11,759 nt of DNA, taken from the NCBI GenBank assembly GCA_016202645.1, contig JACQOF010000114.1:1-11759 (forward strand), written 5' to 3'. The stretch is from a bacterium (GTDB lineage Bacteria > Lindowbacteria > 2-12-FULL-62-27). Of the stretch, positions 3 through 11,759 are shown piece by piece. Position 1 is the first letter of the stretch. The number at the start of each line of letters is the position of its first letter. The translations under genes were made by a program, and so were the position numbers. The notes beneath the pieces were generated by a model. The model was not told the origin of the DNA. It did no database searches and saw only the letters and a program-made list of their open reading frames with translations.

Positions 3-3000
3 CTTTTCACTCCATCAGAGGCGCAAGCGGCCCTCAACACCTGGGACACGCTGACGGCCGCGCCGGATACCGTCTCCGTCGGCGGCGCGCTGGTCTATCT
101 AGGCAGTGGCGATACCATCTACGCATTCCGGGGCAACACCTTCACCGACTTCTGGGGCTACAACACCAAGACGAACGCCTGGACCACGCTGACGGCCGCT
201 CCGGCCACCGTCTACTCCGGCGGCGCGCTGGTCTATCCGGGCAGTGGCGATACCATTTACGCGTTCAGAGGCTTCACCACCACCGCCTTCTGGGGCTACA
301 ACACCAAGACGAACGCATGGACCACGATGACGGCCGCTCCGGCCACCGTCGACAACGGCGGCGCGCTGGTCTATCCGGGCAGTGGCGATACCATTTACGC
401 GTTCGGAGGCAACACCACCACCAACTTCTGGGGCTACACCGTTCCCTTCTACGCCGGTCCCACGTGGTATGTGAACGACGCGTCGACGGCCGGGGACTCG
501 TTCACGACCGCCGTCGGCGACACGACCGGCGACGGCTCGTCGGCGCGGCCGTTTTTGACGATCACGAAGGCGCTGACGAAGGCGAAGGCGGGGGACACGA
601 TTTACATCGACGCCGGGACGTACACCGAGACCGTCGTCATCGACGTTGATTCGGTCGCGCTGATCGGCAAGGACTCCGGCGCGACGGTGATCGACCCGCC
701 GGGATCGAACGCGACAGCCGGGCTATACGGCATCTACGCCGACACGCAAACCGGCCTCACGATCAAAAATCTCGGCGTGACGGGGGCGTATGACGGGATT
801 TATTTCATCAACGTGGATTTGTCGTCCATTTCTGGGGACAGTTTCGGTACGAACGGCGGGCACGGCGTGAATATCATCGATGGGTCAGACTCCAACACGA
901 TCACGGCAAACGACGCCGGCGGCAACTCGCTCCAAGGCATTTACCTCGCTACGAATTCGAACAACAACGCCGTCACCAACAACACGGTCGGCCTCAACGC
1001 CGCCGACGGCATCCTCGTAGCCAACTGTTCGAACGACACCCTGTCCGGCAACACGACCGACTCGAACAGCGGCAGGGGAATCATGGCCCAGTTTTCGTCC
1101 CGGATCGCGGTAATCAACAACCGGGTCCTCGCCAATATTGACGGGATCAAACTCCAAGGCTGCACAACCTGCCTCGTGTCCGGCAACGTCGTGCTGTCGA
1201 ACAGCTACGGCATTGTGCTGGATCCGGGTTCGAACAACATTACGGTGAGGAACAACCACGTGAATTCCAACGTGAACGACGGAATCCTCGTGGTCAGCTC
1301 GGATACCAACCTCATCGCGCAAAATGACGTTTCCGGTCATTCCATCGGCGTGAGTTTGTCGGGTTCTTCCAGAAACAACATCGTGACCAAAAACAATATT
1401 ACCAACAGCAGCAATAAAGACCTCAGCAATTACACCGGCCTTGCCCAGACCGTGTCCCGCAACTGGTGGGGATCGGTTGACACGGCATCGATCAAATCCA
1501 AAATCACCGACACGGTCAACGCCTTCACGCCGTTTCGAATCGGGACCGTGGACACCGCCGCCGGCGCCGACACGACCGCGCCGAAAGCGCCGGACACCGT
1601 GTCGGTTGCCTGCGCCGGGACGTCCTGCACCGTAACCTGGTCGGCGGTGTCGGCCAACGAGGAAGGCGTCACCTGGGGCGGCGATCTGTCCGCCTACCGC
1701 GTCTACCGCCAGACGACAAAGTATACGGCGAACTGGAAAGACACCACCGGCGGCAACGGCCGGCTGGGTCAGTCGTCCGGTGTCTCCTTTGTCGATACAT
1801 CCGCCGGCCAGACCAACTATTATCGGGTGACCGCGTTCGACGCGGGGACTCCTTACGAAAACGAATCCTTTTTTTCCGATTCCATCATCCGCGGCGGCGC
1901 GGTGGATACTCCGCGCATCTACGCCGGCACGTACCAGAATACCGGTACGGTGAAGATCACATGGACATTCGACAGCGAAGAGCAGGGCGCCTACGAAATT
2001 CAGGTCGATACCGGTCTCAGCCCCGACTGGGCCAACCTGGCCGACAACGTGTCCAAAACCGCCGGCTCGATCACGAGTCGCCTGACCGCATCTTTGACCC
2101 GGGGACAGTGGTTTACCGCCCGCATGCGTGTCTGGACCGCCGGCGACGATACGAGTCCCTGGTCGGATTCCGTGGCCTTTTATGTCCTCAAGCGCTTCTC
2201 GGACGGTGACGCCTCGGACTGGGCGGGAACGCCCGGTACGGACTCGGACGCAGGGTCCGTGTCCGGCGGGGAATACATCTGGGTTGATCGGATCGGAGAC
2301 GTGCGGGCGGACCCGGTGGATCCCGACGGCGACATGGATCTGACTCAGTTCCGGGTGACGGCGGACACTTACTATGTCTATTTCATGTTTCAGACGGCCA
2401 ACTGGAGCGCCAACCGCGCTCTATTTTCGATGGCGCTGGACGTGACCCGCAACGCGTCGGACACAGGTATGAACTGGCTCGGCGACGACGCCAACGGGTT
2501 TCTCGGGCGCGGCGGCGAGCAGTACAGCGAAGTGAATCTGGACGCTTCGGACAACGCGCCGGACTCGGCTGTCTGGATTTATTTGGACACGGCCGTCGCG
2601 TGGAACCGTCCGAGCAGTGGGCCGGCATACGACTGGTTTGCCAAGACCACCGAGATCGCCGTCAAACGGGAGGACATCAAATGGTCGCCGGGCGATACGC
2701 TCCGGATCAGTCTGGCGGTCGGCGAACAGAACTCCTCCGTCACGAATCCCCAGACCGGCGACAACTCCGTCAACTTTACGCTGACCGATTTTCTGGACGA
2801 CCTCTACCCCGGCGCCGGCGCCGGCGCCTGGTCGGACGATCTGTCGGACACCGACCTGGATTATTACGTGGACGTCTATTTCGGCTCTGACGGCGAAGTG
2901 CGATCGAACGCCGCGCCGTCGGTTGTGTCATCAGCGGTCACTCCCGCCAACGGCGCCGAAACGACCTCGGCCACCTTCACGTTCCGCTGGTCCCCCGCGG

Positions 3001-6000
3001 CCGACGCCGACGCCAGCGACACGGTGACGTACTGGTTCCGTCTGGACAACGACAGCGGGTTTGGTTTGGTGAATCAGCAAATCTATGTGATCTGGGGCGG
3101 TGAATCTGCCGCATTGACGGCGGAGCTGACGAAGGATGTGACCTATTACTGGCAGGTCCGGGCGCGGGACAATCACGGCCAGTACGGCGCCTGGAGCGAC
3201 ACCTTCAGTTTCACCTATCGAGGAACTCCGCCCAGTCTAATCGACGGCAGCGACACCGACTGGCTGGGCACACCATCGAATCAGGGCCACGACACCGTGA
3301 TTTCCCAGGGAGAATTTATCTATACTGGCGCCCAGGACGACCAGCGGACGGATCTGGGCGACGTGAACGCGACGGACATCACGGAAGTCCGGTTCAAGGG
3401 CGACGCCGATTACCTGTACCTGTTGGTTCGGTTTAAAAGCATCGAGGCCGCAGACAGCGTCCACATCGGCCTTGGGATCGACCTCGATCAGAGTTCGTCC
3501 GACAGCGCTCTCACCTGGCTGGCGGATCAGGACGACATGTCGGTGGGGTCGCCCGCTCTTTATCCCGAAACCAACGTGGCGCTCCACATGACCGCATCCG
3601 GAGCGAAGATCGAAATGTACGACCAGGGTGGCGCCACATGGCACGCGCCAACCTGGGGGTCGGCGGACTCCATTTATATCAGCGCCCCGAACAAACTCTT
3701 GGAGGCAGCCATCGCCTGGCGTGATCTTGCCCCGGTGTCCCTGCCGCAGCGCATCCGCTTTACGCTCGCGAGTTTCTACAACGCCGTGATGTGGAACAAC
3801 GACGGCGACGCCACGAAGGACATCGCCGCCAGCGCCGACGCGTCGGACGTGATGACGCCATACTGCGATTCCGGATTGAACGCCTGGAATCGGGACATCA
3901 GCGACGCCGATTTCGACAGTTCCATCACGGTGAATTTCAACAATACCGGCAAGGTCAACCACTATCCGGACACCCCACTTTCGGACACTCCGTCGGACGC
4001 GACAAAATTCAAGTTGTCCGAAACCGAATCCGGCAAGTCAATCACGCTGGCCTGGAGACTCGACGACAAAGACAGCGCGGACGCCAAAGATTCCGTGGTC
4101 CACCTGCAGGTGGGCAGGACAGCGGGCGGCAACGATGTGCTCGACACGAAATTGTATGGGAACGATCTGGATCTCATCTACACCTTTTCCGCCAATGACA
4201 CGTACTTCTGGCGGGTTCGGCATGCCGACGATTTCGGCACATCGCCGTTTTCAGCCGACCGCAAGTTTTCAGTGGTGTATGAAGGACCGAAGTGGTATGT
4301 CAACGACACCTCGACCGCCGGCGACTCCTACACGACCGCGGTGGGCGCCGACACCGCCGCCGGCGCCATCGGTTCGCCGTTTCGGACGATCATCAAGGCG
4401 CTGCGTTCCGCCGCGGCCGGGGACACGATCTGGATCGACGCGGGCGTGTACGACTCGTACGTGACGGTCAACACGACCGAGACGGCGGGGGTGAACATCG
4501 ACAAGGACTTAATCACGCTGATCGGCAAGGACTCGTCGTCGACGGTCATCGACCCGCCGGGGGCGAATTCGGTCAGCGGGCTATACGGCATCTACGCCGA
4601 CACACAGACAAATCTAACGATCAAAAACCTCGGCGTGACGGGGGCGTATGACGGGCTTCGGTTCGACAATGTGGACAGTTCCACGGTTTCGGGCGACAGC
4701 GTCTGCGGCAACGGCGAGTACGGGATATTTCTTTTGAGCGGATCCAACAATAACACCATCGGCAACAATACAGCCGATTCGAATTCGTCGATCGGCATTT
4801 TGATCTCCGGCTCTAATTACAACACGCTCGACAACAACATCGCCAATTCCAACTCCAATGCCGGAATCAATTTCTCATCCTCTTCTTACGACACAGCAAG
4901 CAACAACACTACGAATTTGAACGGCCTTGCCGGGATCGATCTGAACGGCGGGTCATATTACGTCGTCACCGGCAACACGGCGGACACCAATTCCTCCCAC
5001 GGCATCTATCTCGAAGGCGGGACCAATAACAACACCGTTTCCAATAACACCACCCGCGGCAACTTGACCACCGGCATCTACCTCAACGCGGTCGATACCA
5101 ACACCCTTTCCGGCAACACGGCCAATTCCAACGGCGACGGCATCAAAATTCTCAACAGTCACGGCAATGCGGTGAGTGGGAACGTGACGAATTCGGACAC
5201 GTACAATGGAATCGTGATTTCCGCGTCGAACGGCAATACGGTGGAGACCAATACGTGCAATTTGAACAAGCTGTTTGGAATCTTGCTGGAAGACACGTCC
5301 AGATACAATACGGTGCGCAATAACACGGTGGATACGACCACCGGAAGCGGCATCAAGCTTTTGAGATATTGCGCCTATGATACGGTGACCGGGAATGTAA
5401 CCCGATGGAACTCGGCGCAAGGAATATGGCTGGAGGATACCTCGACGAACAATCAGGTGACGGGCAATACGGCAAACTTTAATGCCGGCGTCGGCATTTT
5501 ACTGAGCGGCGGATCCGACAGCAACACCCTCAAGAGCGATACGGCAAACACAAACTCCGATGGAATCAAGCTGGCGAACAGCGCGGGGAACACGGTTAGT
5601 GGGAACACCGCGAATTCGGACACCTTCAACGGCATGGTCCTCTCCGGTGCAAACAACAATCTGGTCGAATCCAATACGATCAAATCCAACCTAGAGATCG
5701 GCATCCAAATCGCGGACGCATCCAAAAACAATACAATCCGAAGCAACGCCGTTTATTCAAATACCCATGCCGGCTTGAAGTTCTACAGTTCCGACTCGAA
5801 CGCCGTCGTGCAGAACGAAATCGCCGGCGGCGACACCGGCATCCGGATCGAAGGTTCCTCCGCCGGAAATCTGATCGCCAAAAACAACATCGCCGGCGGC
5901 GCCGTCAACCGCGTTTATAACCCGGGCGGCCTGGCCCAGACCCTGACCCGCAACTGGTTCGGCTCGGCTGATTCGGTGACGATCAAGAACAAGATCAGTG

Positions 6001-9000
6001 ACACCGCGTCAGCTTGGACTCCCTGGCGGCTGGCCGCTGTCGACACGCAGCCGAGCGCCGACACGACCGCGCCGAAAGCGCCGGACACTGCGGCGGCGGC
6101 GAATACGGACAGCGCGATTCTGGTGTCGTGGTCGGCGGTGACGGCGCTGGAGGAATCCAACGGCGGCGCGGTGGGGCTGTCGGGGTATCGGGTATACCGG
6201 AGCAAGACGAAAGACACGAGTTCCTGGCTCAAGATCGGGCAGGTTGGCGCCGTCACGCAGTTTGACGACACGGACGCGGCGGAGAACACGACCTATTACT
6301 ACCGCGTGACCGCCTTCGACGCGGCGACATTCGAAAACGAGTCCTTCTTCTCCGACTCCCAGCCTTCCGACTCCGTGGCGAAGTGGACGGGCCCGAACTG
6401 GTACGTGAATGATGCGTGGTCCTCGTCGGCGGACTCATTCAGCTACGCGGGCGGCGCGGACACGTACGGCGGCGACGGATCGGCGTCGAAACCGTTCCGG
6501 AGCCTCGCGCGCGTGAAGCAGAAAGACAAAGCCGGCGACACGATCTGGCAGGACGCCGGCACGTACGGCGGCGACACGTGGGACATGTTTTCGGCGACGG
6601 ATACGGCCGCCGTGAATCTGGATACGGACAACCTGACCCTGATCGGCAAGGATTCGGGGGCGACGGTGATTGATCCGGCGGGGGCGAAGACGGTCGTCGA
6701 CCTCTACGGCATCTACGCCGACACGCAGACGGGTCTCGTGATCCGCGACCTCGGCGTGACGGGCGCCTACAGAGGAATCTTTTTCATCGACGTGGATCGA
6801 GCCACCCTCACCAACGACAGTGTCTGTTCGAACGGAAACGACGGGATCAGCCTGTACGGCAAATCGGAAACGAACACCGTGAGCAACAACATCGCAAGCT
6901 GGAACACGGGTGACGGCGTCATCTTGTCTAATTTTTCGAACAACAACACGGTGAATGACAACACAACCAATTCGAACGGCTATGCGGGGATTCATTTATA
7001 CGCCATTACTGAAAGCGACTCGCCCGGGCAGAACACGTTCCGGAACAACACCTCTAATTTGAACGCCTACGGGATTCGTTCTGATCGCGGATTCGACAAC
7101 ACCTTCATCGCAAACACGACCAATTCGAACTCCAATTCCGGCGTCTACATCAACGGAATGTCCCCCAATAACCTGCTGGTCCGTAATATTTCAAGATCAA
7201 ACACCCTGCACGGATTCTACCTGTGGTGGGACCGCTTCTCGACCCACACTCAAAATACGGCCGAGCTCAACGGCGAGTACCAATACTATATCACGGCAGG
7301 TTCGTTGTCGGACACGATCCAGAAGAACAACATCAAACCCTCGGCCGGCAACCCCGACAGCGGCGTATACAACGCGTCCAATATGTCTTTTGATTTCTCG
7401 CGAAACTACTGGGGCACGACGGACTCCGTTGCGATCGACAAGATGATCTACGACACATCGGGGGCCAAAAAAATAACATTTCAGCCGTACCGCCTCGGCT
7501 CGGTTGACACGGCGGCGGGGGCCGACACGACGGCCCCCAAAGCGCCGGACACGGTGGCGGTGGTAGGCGCGCCGAGCGACACGTCGATCATCGTCGAGTG
7601 GTCGGCGGTGAGCGCGCTTGAGGAAGTCAACGGCGGCGCGGTGGGGCTGTCGGGGTATCGGGTGTACCGGAGCGCCATCAAAGACACCTCGTCATGGGTG
7701 AAAATCGCGCAGGTGGGTTCGGGTGTGCTCCGGTATCAGGACACAGACGCCACGCTCGGCTCTCCATATAATTATAGGGTCACCGCGTTCGACGCCGCAA
7801 CGCCGTTTGAGAACGAGTCGTTTTTCTCCGACTCCCAGCCGACCGACTCCGCGCAGGCGCAGTCGCGGGTGAACTGGTATGTGAACGACGCGTCGACGGC
7901 GGGGGACAGTTTCACATACCTGACCGGAAGCGATGCGACGGGCGAGGGGACGGCGAACAAGCCGTTTGGGACGATCACGAAGGCGCTGTCGCTGGCAACG
8001 GCGGGGGACACGGTGTGGGTCGACGCGGGACTTTACGCAGAAGCGGTCGTCATCGGCAACGACTCGATCAGCGTTGTCGGCAAAGACTCGGCCGCGACCG
8101 TAATCGACCCGCCGGGTTCGAGCGGGACGGCCGGCGTCTGGGGCATTTATGCCGCGGGCCGGGTGAGCCTGTCGATCAGGAATCTGGGCGTGACGGGGGC
8201 CTACAACGGCATCCGGTTTGACAATGTCGACCGGTCCACGGTAAGCGGCGACAGTGTGAGCGCTTGCGGAAATTTCGCGGTTTACCTGCTGAACGGATCC
8301 GACACGAACACGTTGAGCAAGAATGAAGTCGTCTTGAACTCCAACTACGGCATCGCGCTGGACGCAAGTTCCGGCAATACGCTGAGCGACAACATGTCCT
8401 CATCCAACTCGAGCAGCGGCATCAATCTCGGAACGTCGTCGAACGGCAACACGATCACGGGCAATACGACCAATTCGAACACCAACTACGGAATCGATCT
8501 GGCGTCGAGTTCCGTGAACACCACGGTTTCCAACAACACGGCGAATTCCAACACGAGCGCCGGAATCGTGGCGCAGACCGGCAACAATACGTTGACCGGC
8601 AACACGGCGAATTCCAACACGGATTACGGCATTTGGGTCGACGGCGGAAACGCCAACGTGATCCGCGGCAACGTCGCGCGATCCAACGCGAGCGCCGGCA
8701 TCCGGCTGAACATCTCCGACACAAACTCGGTAACGTTGAACGAAGTCTCCGGCAGCGACACGGGAATCTGGATTGCGGGCTCGTCCAGAAACAACGAAAT
8801 CCAGAAAAACAATATCGGCGGCGTCAGCTATCTTCACAACCAGTCCGGCCTGACCCAGACCATCACCCGCAACTGGTTCGGCGCGACGGACGAGGTGACG
8901 ATCGCCGCAAAAGTCAGCGACACCGCCAACGCGTTCCGGCCGTACCGCCTCACGAAGGTCGATACGGCCTCGGGCGCCGACACGACCGCGCCGGCCCTGC

Positions 9001-11759
9001 CGACGGGCGTGACGCTCGACACGAGCGCGGCGGGCCAGATCAAGATCACGTGGACGATCCCGGCGATCAACGAGGAGACCAACGGCGGCGCGGTCGGATT
9101 TGGCGGCCTGAACATCTACCGGCTGGTCAATCTTGTTGACACGACGAACTGGGCCAACTCGGTCAATCTCGTCAAACAGACCGCCTCCACCGACACGACC
9201 TGGACCGACACCACCGTCACGGCGGGAAACACGTACTATTACCGGCTCACGTCGAAGGACGCGGCGGCGTTCTTGAACGAGTCGTTTTTCATGGACACGC
9301 GCGTGACCAAGCCCGCGTACGCGGGGCCGGTGTGGTACGTCAATGACACCGTGACAACCGGCGACTCGTTCACGTATCAGGTGGGTGGCGACGGCGGCAA
9401 CGGCGACGCGGCGGCGCCGTTTTTGACGATCACGAAGGCGCTGTCGAAGGCGAAGGCCGGCGACACGATTTACATCGACGCCGGGACGTACACAGAGACG
9501 GTGGTGATCAATCTCGACAGCGTTGCGCTGATCGGCAAGGACTCGAACGCGACGGTGATTGATCCGCCTGGGGACAGTTCTTCCGCGACGAACGCCAAAG
9601 GGATAACCGCCGACACTCAAACAGGACTCTTGATAAAAAATCTGGCTGTCCGGGACGCCTATTGGGGAATTTATTTTCAAAACGTCGATCAATCGACCAT
9701 CACCGGGGACAGCGCCTGTTACAATGGGCAATATGGCATATACCTCTATAATGGCTCTGACACCAACACGGTCTCCGGCAATGTGGCCAGTTCAAACGGT
9801 CAAACCGGTATCGTCTTGAATGGTTATACCGTCGCAAACTGCGATTTCAATACGGTAAACAATAACACGGCTAATTCGAATAAAGACGCGGGTATAGATG
9901 TGGACGGGAATGCGAACAACAACAGTATCTTCGGCAACACAACCAATTCCAACAATGTTTATGGCGGCATTATGATTTTGGGAAACAAGAACTTCGTCGG
10001 GAATAATACAAGCCTTTCGAATGTCAATTCCGGAATTCGAATATACAACGCAGATTCAAACAGCATCGTTCAAAACGAGTTGACGGGAAATGACACGGGG
10101 CTCTGGATCGTCGGCAGTTCCAGCAACAACCTCATCACAAAAAATAACGTGACGGGCAACAACTTCAGCGTCGCCAACGCGGGCGGTACTTCCCAAACCC
10201 TGACCCGCAACTGGTGGGGCACTACGGACGAGGTTGCGATCTCTGCGAAGTTCAGTGACACCGCGTCGGCGTTCCGCCCCTACCGCCTCGCCGCCGTCGA
10301 CACCGCCGCGGGCGCCGACACGACCGCGCCGGGCAAGGCGGTCGGCGTCACGCTGGACACGACCGTCAAGGGGAAGATCACCATCAAGTGGACGATTCCG
10401 TCGCTCAATGAGGAGACCAACGGCGGCCCGGTCGGGTTCAATGGGCTGAACATCTACCGGCTGAAGGACCTCGTCGACACGACGAACTGGGCCAATTCCG
10501 CCAATCTCGTGAAGCAGACGTCTTCCACGGACACGACGTGGACCGACACGAACGTTTTCGGCGGCAATACCTATTATTATCGTCTCACGTCCAAGGACGC
10601 CGCGACGTTTGTCAACGAGTCGTTTTTCACCGACACGGCCGCGGCGTCGCCCGACACGATCGTGACGGTGGCGCTGGTCAATCCGCAGGACGGACACGAG
10701 ACGACGGCGACCTCCATCCCGTTTTCCTGGTCGACGTCGAACGACGCGGAAACTTACACCTGGCAGTTGTCGCGCACGGCGGCATTTACGACGCTGTCGG
10801 ATAGCGTCGTGGACACAACTGCGACAAGCCTGATCCGCAGTGTCACGGCAAACGATTCGTACTACTGGCGCGTGACCGGCCGCGACGCGGCGGGCAACCA
10901 CGACACCCCGGCGGCGCGAGGATTTGTCATCGACACGCAGACGGGGCAGGTGACGGTATCCAGTCCCGCGGACGGAAACCAGACGAACGCGCCGGCGACC
11001 GTGATTTGGACGGCGCCGGCGGACAGCGTCGGAATTGATTCCTACGTCGTGGAGGTATCCAAGAGCTCGGCGTTTACGACGACGGTTTCGGCCGACACGG
11101 TGGACGGCGCGGTCACGTCGCAGTTATTGAGCGGTCTCTACAACGACACCTATTACTGGCGCGTGCGCGCGATTGACGATGTCGGCAATGTCGGGGCAAA
11201 CTCCTCGGTGCGCGGGTTCGTGTATGACACGGCGATTGCGCAGGTGACATCGTCGAGTCCGGCGGACGGCGCCGCACAGAACCGCGCCGGGACGGTGATC
11301 TGGAACGCGGTGACGGGAGATTCGAGCGGGATCGACAGTTACGTGGTTGAGGCATCAAAGAGTTCGGGATTCACATCGACGATCTCCGCGGACACAGTCG
11401 ACGGCGCTGTGACGTCGCAGCTCCTCAGCGGGATATACAACGACACATACTTCTGGCGCGTCCGTGCTATAGACGGCGCGGGGAACACGGGGACGAACTC
11501 GGCGGTGCGAGGGTTCCTGCTGGACACGGGTGTTCCGGCGCAGGTGACGGCGTCGAGTCCGGCGGACGCGGCTCAGCAAAACTCCGCGGTGACGGTAATC
11601 TGGAGCGCGGTGACGGGAGACTCGAGCGGGATCGACAGTTACGTGGTTGAGGTCTCGAAGAGTTCTGGATTCACGTCGATGATTTCCGCGGACACCGTGG
11701 ACGGCGCGGTGACGTCACAACTTCTAAGCGGTCTTTATAACGACACATACTTCTGGCGC
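3..11759 (+). CDS. Giant modular repeat protein (Kelch, beta-helix, FN3, DOMON-like), internal fragment open at both ends
   Basis: Reading from base 3 in frame 3 gives 3919 consecutive sense codons. I checked the frame at many landmarks (WYVND, GAYDG, RNWWG, TYFWR), all at positions divisible by three, and in-frame stops are absent. The order is three Kelch-like repeats, beta-helix 1, two FN3-like domains, DOMON-like A, FN3-like, DOMON-like B, FN3-like, four beta-helix plus FN3 units, then at least four Ig/FN3-like tandem repeats. The composition is rich in Asp, Thr, Asn, Ser and Gly, poor in Lys and nearly free of Cys, as expected of an exported acidic structural protein. No transmembrane segment is evident. 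Members of these families act outside the cytoplasm as adhesins, sheath or carbohydrate-binding proteins; that role is inferred here. Start, signal peptide, ribosome binding site, stop and anchor lie outside the window. The true length is unknown but exceeds 3919 residues. Codon use is mostly GC-ending. Confidence 0.95.
42..446 (+). repeat. Three Kelch-like repeats, exact 138-bp period
   Basis: Residues 14-148 hold three copies of a 46-residue unit. They begin at the Trp codons at 42, 180 and 318, so the period is exactly 138 bases. Each copy has the pattern W-T-LTAAPxT, then GGALVYPGSGDTIYAF, then RG-NTTT-FWGYNTKTN. The double Gly, the Tyr and the spaced Trp match the Kelch blade consensus, where each unit forms one four-stranded blade of a beta-propeller. 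The third copy ends at FWGYTVPF and passes directly into beta-helix 1. Three blades are too few to close a usual propeller, and the 13 residues upstream do not look like another copy. Either earlier, more diverged blades lie outside the window or the unit is not a closed propeller. The copies are nearly identical in DNA, implying recent duplication or homogenisation. Confidence 0.8.
465..1565 (+). other. Right-handed beta-helix module 1 (NosD/DUF1565-like)
   Basis: Residues 155-521 begin with WYVNDASTAGDSF. The conserved head follows: GDTIYIDAGTYTETVV, LIGKDSGATVIDPPG, GIYADTQTGLTIKNLGVTG. About nine rungs come next, marked by GI/GV at the end of each coil and by NNT, SGNT and NSN turns. The exit cap is SRNWWGS with its first Trp at 1464, then a KITDTVNAFTPFR strand. 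This is the PbH1/NosD-type right-handed parallel beta-helix, a fold of extracellular adhesins and polysaccharide-binding or -cleaving proteins. No catalytic residue set is recognisable. Unlike the other four modules it lacks the Cys in the SGDSxC position (it reads SGDSFGTNG). It does contain a CTTC pair on a middle rung (about 1158-1169). Confidence 0.85.
1566..1901 (+). other. Fibronectin type III domain 1
   Basis: Residues 522-633 start with the linker ADTTAPKAPDTV. They show the FN3 hallmarks: a central Trp in VTWSAVS, a SAYRVYR strand, and the late NYYRVTAFDAG strand ending in NESFFSDS. It is the most diverged of the five post-helix FN3 domains. It has a CAGTSC pair in the first strand region and a longer loop (TTKYTANWKDTTGGNGRLG) where the others have DTSSW or DTTNW. 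FN3 domains usually act as spacers or binding modules in secreted proteins. Confidence 0.8.
1902..2195 (+). other. FN3-like beta-sandwich domain
   Basis: Residues 634-731 contain VKITWTFDSEE, YEIQVDTG, and a late strand FTARMRVWTAGDDTSPWSDS followed by VAFYVLKRF. The Trp-core strand, the aromatic/Arg late strand and the WSDS exit are FN3-like. It joins FN3 domain 1 to DOMON-like domain A without a visible linker. The assignment is by pattern only and is weaker than for the DTTAP-initiated domains. Confidence 0.55.
2196..2909 (+). other. DOMON/CBM9-like beta-sandwich domain A
   Basis: Residues 732-969 open with FSDGDASDWAGTPG, the D-G-x-x-x-DW opening typical of DOMON-like and CBM9-like ligand-binding sandwiches. 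GEYIWVDRIGDVRAD follows (Glu codon at 2271), then DMDLTQFRVTAD and TYYVYFMFQT. Next comes FSMALDVTRNASDTG, a strand expected to carry an acidic, possibly metal-binding edge. The C-terminal half has an Asp/Asn-rich NAPDSAVWIYLDT strand and a LDDLYPGAGAG tail. Such domains bind sugars or heme in other proteins; the ligand here cannot be told. Domain B downstream shows the same motif order, so the two are probably paralogous. The insertion of this pair breaks the regular helix-FN3 alternation. Confidence 0.6.
2910..3224 (+). other. FN3/Ig-like domain between the two DOMON-like domains
   Basis: Residues 970-1074 carry TPANGAETTSATFTFRWSP, then VTYWFRLDND, and the late strand VTYYWQVRARDNHGQYGAWS. 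The closing YYWQVRARD pattern is the same as in the C-terminal Ig/FN3-like repeats (YYWRVRAIDD), so this domain belongs to that subtype rather than to the DTTAPKAP type. It acts as the spacer between DOMON-like domains A and B. Confidence 0.7.
3225..3977 (+). other. DOMON/CBM9-like beta-sandwich domain B
   Basis: Residues 1075-1325 begin LIDGSDTDWLGTPS. GEFIYTGAQDDQRTD follows (Glu codon at 3312), then ITEVRFKGDADYLYLLVRF, HIGLGIDLDQSSSD and LTWLADQDD. The order of motifs (DG-DW-GTP; GE-F/Y-I-aromatic; D-R-x-D; T-x-x-R; Y-x-Y; I/L-D) repeats that of domain A. Domain B differs in its second half, which has an EAAIAWRDL strand and a RIRFTLASFYNAVMWNNDG stretch. Related domains occur in secreted carbohydrate-active enzymes, so sugar binding is a reasonable but unproven inference. 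Confidence 0.6.
3978..4292 (+). other. FN3-like domain before beta-helix 2
   Basis: Residues 1326-1430 contain ESGKSITLAWRLDDKD (core Trp), VVHLQVGRTAGG, and the late strand NDTYFWRVRHADDFGTSPFS, ending in RKFSVVYEGPK. The TYFWRVR strand is shared with the C-terminal repeats. It connects DOMON-like domain B to the WYVND entry strand of beta-helix 2. Confidence 0.65.
4293..6056 (+). other. Right-handed beta-helix module 2, longest stack
   Basis: Residues 1431-2018 follow the standard plan: WYVNDTSTAGDSY entry, GDTIWIDAGVY head, LIGKDSSSTVIDPPG, and GIYADTQTNLTIKNLG. The SGDSVCGNG Cys and the cap TRNWFGSAD (Trp codon at 5955) with SDTASAWTPWRL are also present. I count about eighteen rungs, each 23-24 residues between successive GI positions, roughly twice the number in the other helices. 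Rung turns are dominated by NNT, SGNT, NSN and DSN. Part of the extra length comes from an internal six-rung offset duplication (see 5100-5783). Codons are more AT-ending here than in the FN3 domains. No catalytic site is recognised; the role is structural or adhesive by inference. Confidence 0.87.
5100..5783 (+). repeat. Internal duplication of beta-helix rungs, 423-bp offset
   Basis: The segment from 5100 to about 5360 matches 5523 to about 5783 at an offset of exactly 423 bases (141 residues, six rungs). Matching landmarks are GDGIKILNS / SDGIKLANS (Ile codons at 5142 and 5565), NAVSGNVTNSDTYNGI / NTVSGNTANSDTFNGM (Asn codons at 5166 and 5589), and TVETNTCNLN / LVESNTIKSN. The similarity fades after about 260 bases, leaving about 160 unmatched bases between the copies. 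This implies an in-frame tandem duplication of six rungs, followed by divergence. Confidence 0.75.
6057..6398 (+). other. Fibronectin type III domain after beta-helix 2
   Basis: Residues 2019-2132 run from ADTTAPKAPDTAAAANTDS through ILVSWSAVTALEE, NGGAVGLSGYRVYRS, DTSSWLKIGQVG and TTYYYRVTAFDAATF to NESFFSDSQPSDS. This is a canonical FN3 layout with the core Trp and the YYYRV strand. Over 6150-6203 it differs from the next FN3 domain (7620-7673) at only three of 54 bases. Confidence 0.85.
6399..7520 (+). other. Right-handed beta-helix module 3
   Basis: Residues 2133-2506 start WYVNDAWSSSADSF, with an altered head (ARVKQKDKAGDTIWQDAGTY, then GGDTWDMFSATD) that adds residues before LIGKDSGATVIDPAG. 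About seven recognisable rungs follow. One has an unusual Trp/aromatic-rich segment, HGFYLWWDRFSTHTQ (about 7209-7253), and the next is GEYQYYITAGS. The cap is SRNYWGTTD (Trp codon at 7410), with a strand variant KKITFQPYRLGS. It has the conserved Cys in TNDSVCSNG. It is the least regular of the five stacks, and its late rungs lack the simple NNT/NSN ladder. Confidence 0.83.
7521..7874 (+). other. Fibronectin type III domain after beta-helix 3
   Basis: Residues 2507-2624 carry ADTTAPKAPDTVAVVG, IIVEWSAVSALEE, NGGAVGLSGYRVYRS, DTSSWVKIAQVG, YNYRVTAFDAATPF and NESFFSDSQPTDS. It is the closest relative of the FN3 domain after helix 2. A short QAQSRVN linker leads to beta-helix 4. Confidence 0.85.
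7875..8975 (+). other. Right-handed beta-helix module 4
   Basis: Residues 2625-2991 show WYVNDASTAGDSF, GDTVWVDAGLYAEAVV, VVGKDSAATVIDPPG and NLGVTGAYNGIRF, with SGDSVSACGN placing a Cys near the conserved site. The head segment GIYAAGRVSLSIRN has lost the ADTQTG element. About nine rungs follow with a regular NTxSxN/NSNT ladder. One rung is shortened to 22 residues (AACACG repeats at 8535 and 8601, 66 bases apart). The cap is TRNWFGATD (Trp codon at 8874) and SDTANAFRPYRL. Confidence 0.86.
8976..9332 (+). other. Fibronectin type III domain after beta-helix 4
   Basis: Residues 2992-3110 run ADTTAPALPTGVTLDTSA, IKITWTIPAINEETNGGAVG, GGLNIYRLVNL, VDTTNWANSVNLVKQT, NTYYYRLTSKDAA and NESFFMDT. 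With the FN3 domain after helix 5 it forms a second subtype, marked by the GLNIYRL strand and the TTNWANS insert in place of SGYRVYRS and TSSW. Confidence 0.85.
9333..10313 (+). other. Right-handed beta-helix module 5
   Basis: Residues 3111-3437 begin WYVNDTVTTGDSFTY. The head is GDTIYIDAGTYTETVV, LIGKDSNATVIDPPG and ADTQTGLLIKNLAV, where the usual LGVTGAY has become LAVRDAY. TGDSACYNG carries the conserved Cys. About seven rungs follow. The cap is TRNWWGTTD (first Trp codon at 10212), then SDTASAFRPYRL. The head DNA at 549-623 of module 1 and 9417-9491 here is almost identical (72 of 75 bases), although the rungs are unrelated in detail. The rungs (about 9640-10140) are visibly more AT-rich than their flanks. 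Confidence 0.86.
10314..10661 (+). other. Fibronectin type III domain after beta-helix 5
   Basis: Residues 3438-3553 show ADTTAPGKAVGVTLDTTV, ITIKWTIPSLNEETNGGPVG, NGLNIYRLKDL, VDTTNWANSANLVKQT, NTYYYRLTSKDAA and NESFFTDT. It is nearly a copy of the FN3 domain after helix 4. It closes the alternating region; the following sequence changes to the shorter Ig/FN3-like tandem repeats. Confidence 0.85.
10662..11759 (+). repeat. Tandem Ig/FN3-like repeats, at least four, last one cut by the window end
   Basis: Four repeats begin at 10662 (95 residues, diverged), 10947 (98 residues), 11241 (100 residues) and 11541 (73 residues visible). Repeats two to four start QVTxSSPADG and share IDSYVVEVSKSS, SADTVDGAVTSQLLSG and YNDTYYWRVRAID. 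The first has the same frame with NPQDGHETTATS and SYYWRVTGRDAAGN. These are short beta-sandwich spacers common in surface proteins, and they extend the molecule as a stalk. Comparing the third and fourth repeats over 11295-11459 and 11595-11759, 19 of 55 codons differ but only four change the residue. The protein sequence has therefore been kept while silent sites drifted. The number of further copies is not visible. Confidence 0.85.

Follow-up and report, generated by a model that had tools for sequence, protein, structure and literature searches.

What kind of gene fills an entire contig without a single stop codon, and what could its product do for the cell? This question is raised by the window analysed here, the whole stretch of 11,759 bp, which is one entire contig (JACQOF010000114.1; C90) of a Candidatus Lindowbacteria MAG (G000; 2.9 Mb, 146 contigs, 82% complete). 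Two other Lindowbacteria genomes of the same family as the window's genome, MFPR01 (RIFCSPLOWO2_12_FULL_62_27; G001) and JAHFCY01 (nzgw232; G002), were used for comparison; all strong named matches in a search with the C-terminal domain described below belong to these two. Contigs are designated C followed by a number within each genome.

The open frame and its assembly

Frame 3 (3-11759) runs through 3,919 codons without a stop, while the next longest stop-to-stop frame of the window measures 511 aa. None of 200 first-order Markov sequences contained an open run of more than 536 codons, and the median of their longest runs was 290. The GC3 value lies between 0.74 and 0.86 in each 1.2-kb bin, with GC1/GC2 at 0.41-0.58. 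The differences between paralogous modules within the window are mostly synonymous, and pairs of FN3, Ig and beta-helix modules have dN/dS ratios of about 0.15-0.35 (FN4-FN5, dS 0.73, dN 0.16; last Ig repeats, dS 0.59, dN 0.09; helix 1-helix 5, dS 1.74, dN 0.38). A non-coding open frame was rejected on the basis of the Markov sequences, GC3 and dN/dS. The Kelch repeats are the exception to the synonymous pattern (repeats 2-3, dS 0.09, dN 0.19), and since the DNA is nearly identical across all three of them, a recent duplication or conversion is suggested. The claim of an earlier note on this DNA, that a single open frame fills the window as part of a giant gene too large for it, was thus borne out, the 3' edge cutting through an Ig repeat.

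Such a frame might also arise if repeats of several genes had been fused during assembly. The genome is a fragmented MAG, its contigs tend to end inside these repeats, and two of the other contigs (C53 and C83) overlap by exactly 141 bp, as expected if 141 bp is the k-mer length of the assembler. Exact matches of the window, however, reach at most 71 bp in the other contigs examined and at most 49 bp within its own sequence, so that it contains no junction of k = 141. Moreover, complete frames of the same architecture are present on 60-266-kb contigs of another published genome. A false frame of this origin is therefore highly improbable, and an assembly chimera joining separate genes was rejected on both grounds.

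Domain organization of the encoded protein

The domain order was obtained with profiles made of the window's own repeats (Table 1). Kelch_6, fn3, NosD/Beta_helix and DUF1565 all scored above the Pfam cut-offs, and NCBIfam marked 25 PbH1 stretches. The modular make-up read earlier, with Kelch repeats, a beta-helix, helix-FN3 alternation and an Ig-like stalk, is upheld by these profile matches, and the reading as a surface protein is supported as probable. The combination of domains, which could not be assigned to a named protein, was likewise absent from the literature covered by full-text searches. In one frame, the end of a signal peptide, assigned by homology, is followed by five modules of beta-helix (N-cap WYVND...) and FN3. 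The three Kelch repeats contrast with six in the homologue on C107 of the host MAG and in two G001 giants, and fall short of a closed propeller of 6-7 blades. The linker at 1908..2192 had no BLAST relative in the other giants compared.

Table 1. Features of the window and, where a G001 contig is named, candidate export-related genes next to relatives
Feature	Position	Strand	Basis
Signal peptide end (Sec), LFTPSEAQA	3..29	+	Homologues on C74 and in G001
Three Kelch repeats, 46 aa each (36-173, 174-311, 312-449)	36..449	+	Kelch_6 35.6 bits, cut-off 25.3; repeat map
Module 1: right-handed beta-helix (456-1538), then FN3 (1563-1853)	456..1853	+	NosD/Beta_helix/PbH1, AlphaFold, Foldseek
Single FN3/Ig-like linker	1908..2192	+	Translation; FN3-like by eye only
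CBM9/DOMON-like domain A	2193..2951	+	26% identity to domain B; hhalign to CBM9
Ig/FN3-like spacer between the two CBM9-like domains	2952..3200	+	IGt profile match; Ig_Rha78A_N match
CBM9/DOMON-like domain B	3234..3998	+	As for domain A
Ig/FN3-like spacer	4008..4256	+	IGt profile match
Module 2: long beta-helix (4290-6032) and FN3 (6054-6332)	4290..6332	+	
Module 3: beta-helix (6375-7502) and FN3 (7518-7805)	6375..7805	+	
Module 4: beta-helix (7872-8957) and FN3 (8973-9272)	7872..9272	+	
Module 5: beta-helix (9324-10292) and FN3 (10311-10610)	9324..10610	+	
Ig/FN3 stalk, four repeats of ~99 aa, last cut by contig end	10617..11759	+	
Weak PorV-like protein, directly after the 8,313-codon frame	G001 C6:146138		
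Weak PorV-like protein	G001 C31:39802		
Weak PorV-like protein	G001 C28:205202		

In the AlphaFold model of module 1, based on an alignment of the window's five modules only, the helix part is a right-handed beta-helix in which most of residues 30-290 have a pLDDT of about 90-98; confidence is low for FN3. The nearest PDB folds found by Foldseek are the A-modules of AlgE4 and AlgE6, other polysaccharide enzymes (lyases, fructotransferases) and phage tailspikes. The AlgE-type mannuronan C-5 epimerases, which provide the closest solved fold, likewise repeat a right-handed beta-helix module within a single extracellular chain. The protein could accordingly be read as a modular extracellular enzyme modifying polysaccharides, with epimerase or lyase modules of beta-helix fold that recur in the manner of AlgE, and with FN3 and CBM-like domains as accessories; glycan enzymes often have CBM9-like domains in such an accessory role. 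The likeness to AlgE is nevertheless limited to TM-scores of about 0.5 and a sequence identity of about 15%, and AlgE contains RTX modules where the window has FN3 spacers. The DPH motif is the signature of AlgE catalysis. It is absent from the window and from all family proteins examined; where it does occur, the frame is on the wrong strand. Across 116 helix modules, columns of the N-cap and first coils with more than 85% conservation comprise W, Y, N, D, G, P, S, T and hydrophobic residues, with no K, R, H or E, and the NCBIfam AlgG model matches with 26.8 bits against a cut-off of 700. With the DPH motif and conserved residues of catalytic type missing, an alginate epimerase or lyase was lowered among the candidates, and the enzymatic reading as a whole appears quite unlikely.

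The earlier note had also described paired DOMON-like domains. The pair itself stands, as two domains that are 26% identical to each other. Their 14-sequence profile aligned by hhalign to a CBM9-like profile, made from PF06452 matches, with a score of 34-35 (42-52% probability, P ~2e-4), while no control exceeded 15.8, whether one of 30 column-shuffled versions, the profile in reverse or one of five unrelated profiles. A DOMON family match, by contrast, was not obtained: single-sequence and profile searches with the 14 members returned nothing from Pfam, NCBIfam or the PDB, and the similarity to PF06452 or a related family model is distant and at the level of profiles. A search with this region gave no named relatives, and the AlphaFold model, built on a two-sequence alignment, has a pLDDT of 31. 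The pair may thus be called CBM9/DOMON-like in the sense of distant similarity, a term not meant as family membership. Among the 60 genomes searched, relatives of these domains were present only in the three Lindowbacteria genomes, often paired and separated by an Ig domain. In G001, the pair occurs in the frames of 5,542, 8,313 and 4,195 codons and is missing from those of 9,114 and 4,954 codons.

Ends of the gene

Both edges of the window had been taken for unfinished domains. This is correct for the 3' edge, but the 5' edge carries the end of a signal peptide, as judged from homologues in the same and the sister genome. The sequence LFTPSEAQA, followed by A, is identical to the last residues of a signal peptide that C74 of the same genome carries in full length at its left end (..LLILALSTFLFPLFTPSEAQA, followed by ANTW). 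In G001, similar signal peptides precede Kelch in the frames of contigs 6 and 24 (..IALSTFLFSLFTDPASAA, followed by PNTW). On C74 and in both G001 homologues, the signal peptide leads directly into the Kelch repeats. Because of this match, only the start codon and about 25-35 codons would be missing upstream, leaving the N-terminus almost complete.

The 3' end of the gene is probably located on C33. This contig begins inside the same kind of Ig repeat, where its DNA is 85% identical across 180 bp, a better match than any other contig gave, and continues with ten Ig repeats, a FlgD_ig/Por_Secre_tail domain (PF18962, 29.5 bits; PF13860, 31.6 bits; cut-off 27 for each) and a stop. The assignment was made because the window tail and C33 share one closest G001 protein, to which they are 75% and 71% identical, the next best values being 57% and 59%; they align to its residues 11-352 and 985-1944, respectively. 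The gap between them may amount to perhaps 600 aa, which would give a protein of about 6,000-6,200 aa, at least about 5,600, with the window covering an estimated two thirds of the gene. The 99-aa FlgD_ig-type domain, ending in ..DKLAIVR, would thus lie beyond the end of the window's contig. Of the targets recommended by the earlier note for a search, the end of a signal peptide was recognized in the window, and a domain resembling C-terminal sorting signals is present on C33, whose attachment is based on similarity.

A paralogous family of giant proteins in Lindowbacteria

The window gene belongs to a large paralogous family of giants in Lindowbacteria. In the host MAG, its modules are spread over at least 12 contigs, and the fragments counted amount to 170 kb, or 5.8% of its sequence, the counts of giants, taken from searches and individual contigs, being lower bounds. 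In G001, complete frames have 9,114, 8,313, 5,542, 5,498, 4,954, 4,195 and 3,482 codons. Together with frames of 7,200, 5,224, 5,038, 4,540, 3,790 and 3,214 codons that are cut by a contig end, they add up to 210 kb, or 4.8% of the genome. Being measured from stop to stop, these lengths somewhat exceed those of the actual proteins, and some frames lack some of the modules. A 99-aa C-terminal domain is conserved in seven family C-termini (64-74% identity to the first) and matches FlgD_ig and Por_Secre_tail. Similar but weak C-terminal domains were found in Krumholzibacteriia, Eisenbacteria, Latescibacterota, KSB1, WOR-3 and others. Relatives of the window protein also contain FG-GAP and Lamin Tail domains. 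No transmembrane helix beyond the signal peptide was detected in the 11 family fragments scanned, and no catalytic domain was found in the scanned family proteins.

Several further observations concern individual members. Contigs C53 and C83, whose right and left ends, respectively, overlap, are both open throughout, which suggests that they form one frame of at least about 7,800 codons. A longer chain C12-C53-C83-C131, corresponding to a gene of more than 14,000 aa, is not claimed, as the exact 141-bp overlap exists only at C53-C83. On C107 (11857-12070), the frame of a Kelch-type giant breaks near 12,000: the signal peptide, the six Kelch repeats and the start of the helix are read in one frame and the rest in another, so that this paralogue is either frameshifted or misassembled. 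An Alginate_exp (PF13372) outer-membrane beta-barrel gene (C88:17945-19510) directly follows a 4,410-codon giant. Two large neighbouring proteins on C48 (2474-5707 and 6125-10366) have nearly identical N-termini, and the second ends in a Peptidase_S74 endosialidase-chaperone domain. The giant C-terminal regions on C33, C74, C88, C48 and C123 contain low-complexity in-frame stretches, e.g., LPLSLSPSLPLSLTL, NPKSEIRNPKSQ and GEREKGRE; together with similar ones in neighbouring frames, they look like short repeats inserted in frame into genes.

A 22-bp sequence, AACTTAACAACTWACGGTCTGA, is present in 11, 4 and 1 copies in the three Lindowbacteria genomes and in none in the reversed control. Its sites include C74:421-442(-), C74:1415-1436(+), C107:13439-13460(-) and C35:15016 and 15058(-) in the host MAG, as well as C6:153858(+) and C24:55433(-) in G001. 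In both genomes, several copies are situated just upstream of Kelch-type giant genes, and on C74 two inverted copies flank a gene resembling a Y1_Tnp transposase (confirmed at C88:3765-4697). The sequence may represent a REP element linked to the transposase, or else a control site that these genes have in common.

Proposed function and export

The product of the window gene is probably a secreted, surface-attached adhesive rod of the Lindowbacteria cell, one of many paralogues, which would bind glycans or cell surfaces. The recognized domains (Kelch, NosD/Beta_helix, fn3, Ig) are all binding or structural. Together with the lack of a catalytic domain, of the DPH motif and of conserved K, R, H or E in the proteins and columns described above, this favours an adhesive rod over an enzyme. 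The N-terminal signal peptide would direct the protein into the Sec pathway. The chain is then predicted to fold as rigid beads, comprising the Kelch blade array, the five beta-helix and FN3 units, the CBM9-like pair and a long Ig/FN3 stalk, and most likely to terminate in the FlgD_ig/Por_Secre-type domain, which would serve outer-membrane export or anchoring. The beta-helix faces and the CBM9-like pair might contact polysaccharides or the surfaces of other cells, in line with the fold matches of module 1 to polysaccharide-binding enzymes and phage tailspikes and with the distant CBM9 similarity of the pair. According to our estimate from domain sizes, the rod could be very roughly 100-150 nm long. 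Because the paralogues are built from the same parts, a cell might present a varied set of rods.

The giant proteins of Omnitrophota have been proposed as coats or as agents of predation (PMC10066038, PMC12057145), and those of Omnitrophota, Elusimicrobia and CG03 have been read as weapons or cellulosome-like structures (PMC12057145). A coat or sheath around the cell, or a weapon that a predatory or epibiotic cell uses on contact, would also agree with a family that occupies about 5-6% of the genome. The proteins scanned, however, contain neither transmembrane helices nor a degradative domain, and such a role is considered unlikely here.

With a Por_Secre-type domain, a rod of this size would be expected to cross the outer membrane through the translocon SprA. 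The family C-terminal domain resembles that of T9SS cargo through its matches to PF13860 and PF18962. In contrast to T9SS cargo, it occurs where sprA/SprA (PF14349) was found in none of the three Lindowbacteria genomes (82-94% complete), as against all six comparison genomes with similar C-terminal domains; cargo of an SprA-type T9SS was therefore rejected. Weak PorV-like matches lie just downstream of some G001 genes with this domain (Table 1). It is conceivable, if rather doubtful, that Lindowbacteria possess a large, lineage-specific set of giant surface proteins whose T9SS-like C-terminal domain is handled by an export or anchoring system that works without SprA. If true, chains of up to about 9,000 residues would pass the outer membrane by a route that has not been described.

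Comparison with known giant proteins

Bacteria seldom carry giant genes, and those on record are mostly open reading frames with poor annotation. In the Lindowbacteria family, the modular anatomy can be read, each genome holds many paralogues, complete frames reach 9,114 codons, and the members have a C-terminal domain in common. No description of the family, or of its domain combination, was found in the largely open-access literature searched by full text. The phylum-level lineage itself has hardly any literature: of the fourteen open-access papers found to name Lindowbacteria, none does so in its title or abstract, and a survey of huge proteins does not mention it (PMC11573180). The family makes a clean set for asking how giants grow by module duplication and reach the surface without detectable SprA.

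The closest relatives are those of the sister genome. The G001 frames of 9,114 codons (contig 6) and 4,954 codons (contig 24) share with the window the signal peptide, Kelch repeats that are about 70% identical, and beta-helix and FN3 modules, and both end in the C-terminal domain. They differ from it in the number of modules, in having six Kelch repeats and, in one of them, in FG-GAP repeats. The Ig tail of the window is closest (75% identity) to a third G001 protein. The Giant1-5 proteins of Apilactobacillus kunkeei are reported to be also an extracellular family (PMC12863079), of 3,000-8,000 aa and about 6% of the genome. They belong to lactic acid bacteria and are encoded by five consecutive genes, whereas the Lindowbacteria paralogues are scattered.

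The likeness to the giants of Omnitrophota and Elusimicrobiota, to which the earlier note had pointed, is one of kind and not of ancestry. The proteins of Velamenicoccus and other Omnitrophota (PMC10066038) resemble the Lindowbacteria family in being very long single ORFs of uncultured bacteria with a proposed surface role. They have, however, many predicted membrane helices and few recognizable or annotated domains, while the Lindowbacteria proteins scanned show no membrane helix beyond the signal peptide and are characterized by clear repeated domains and a common C-terminal domain.
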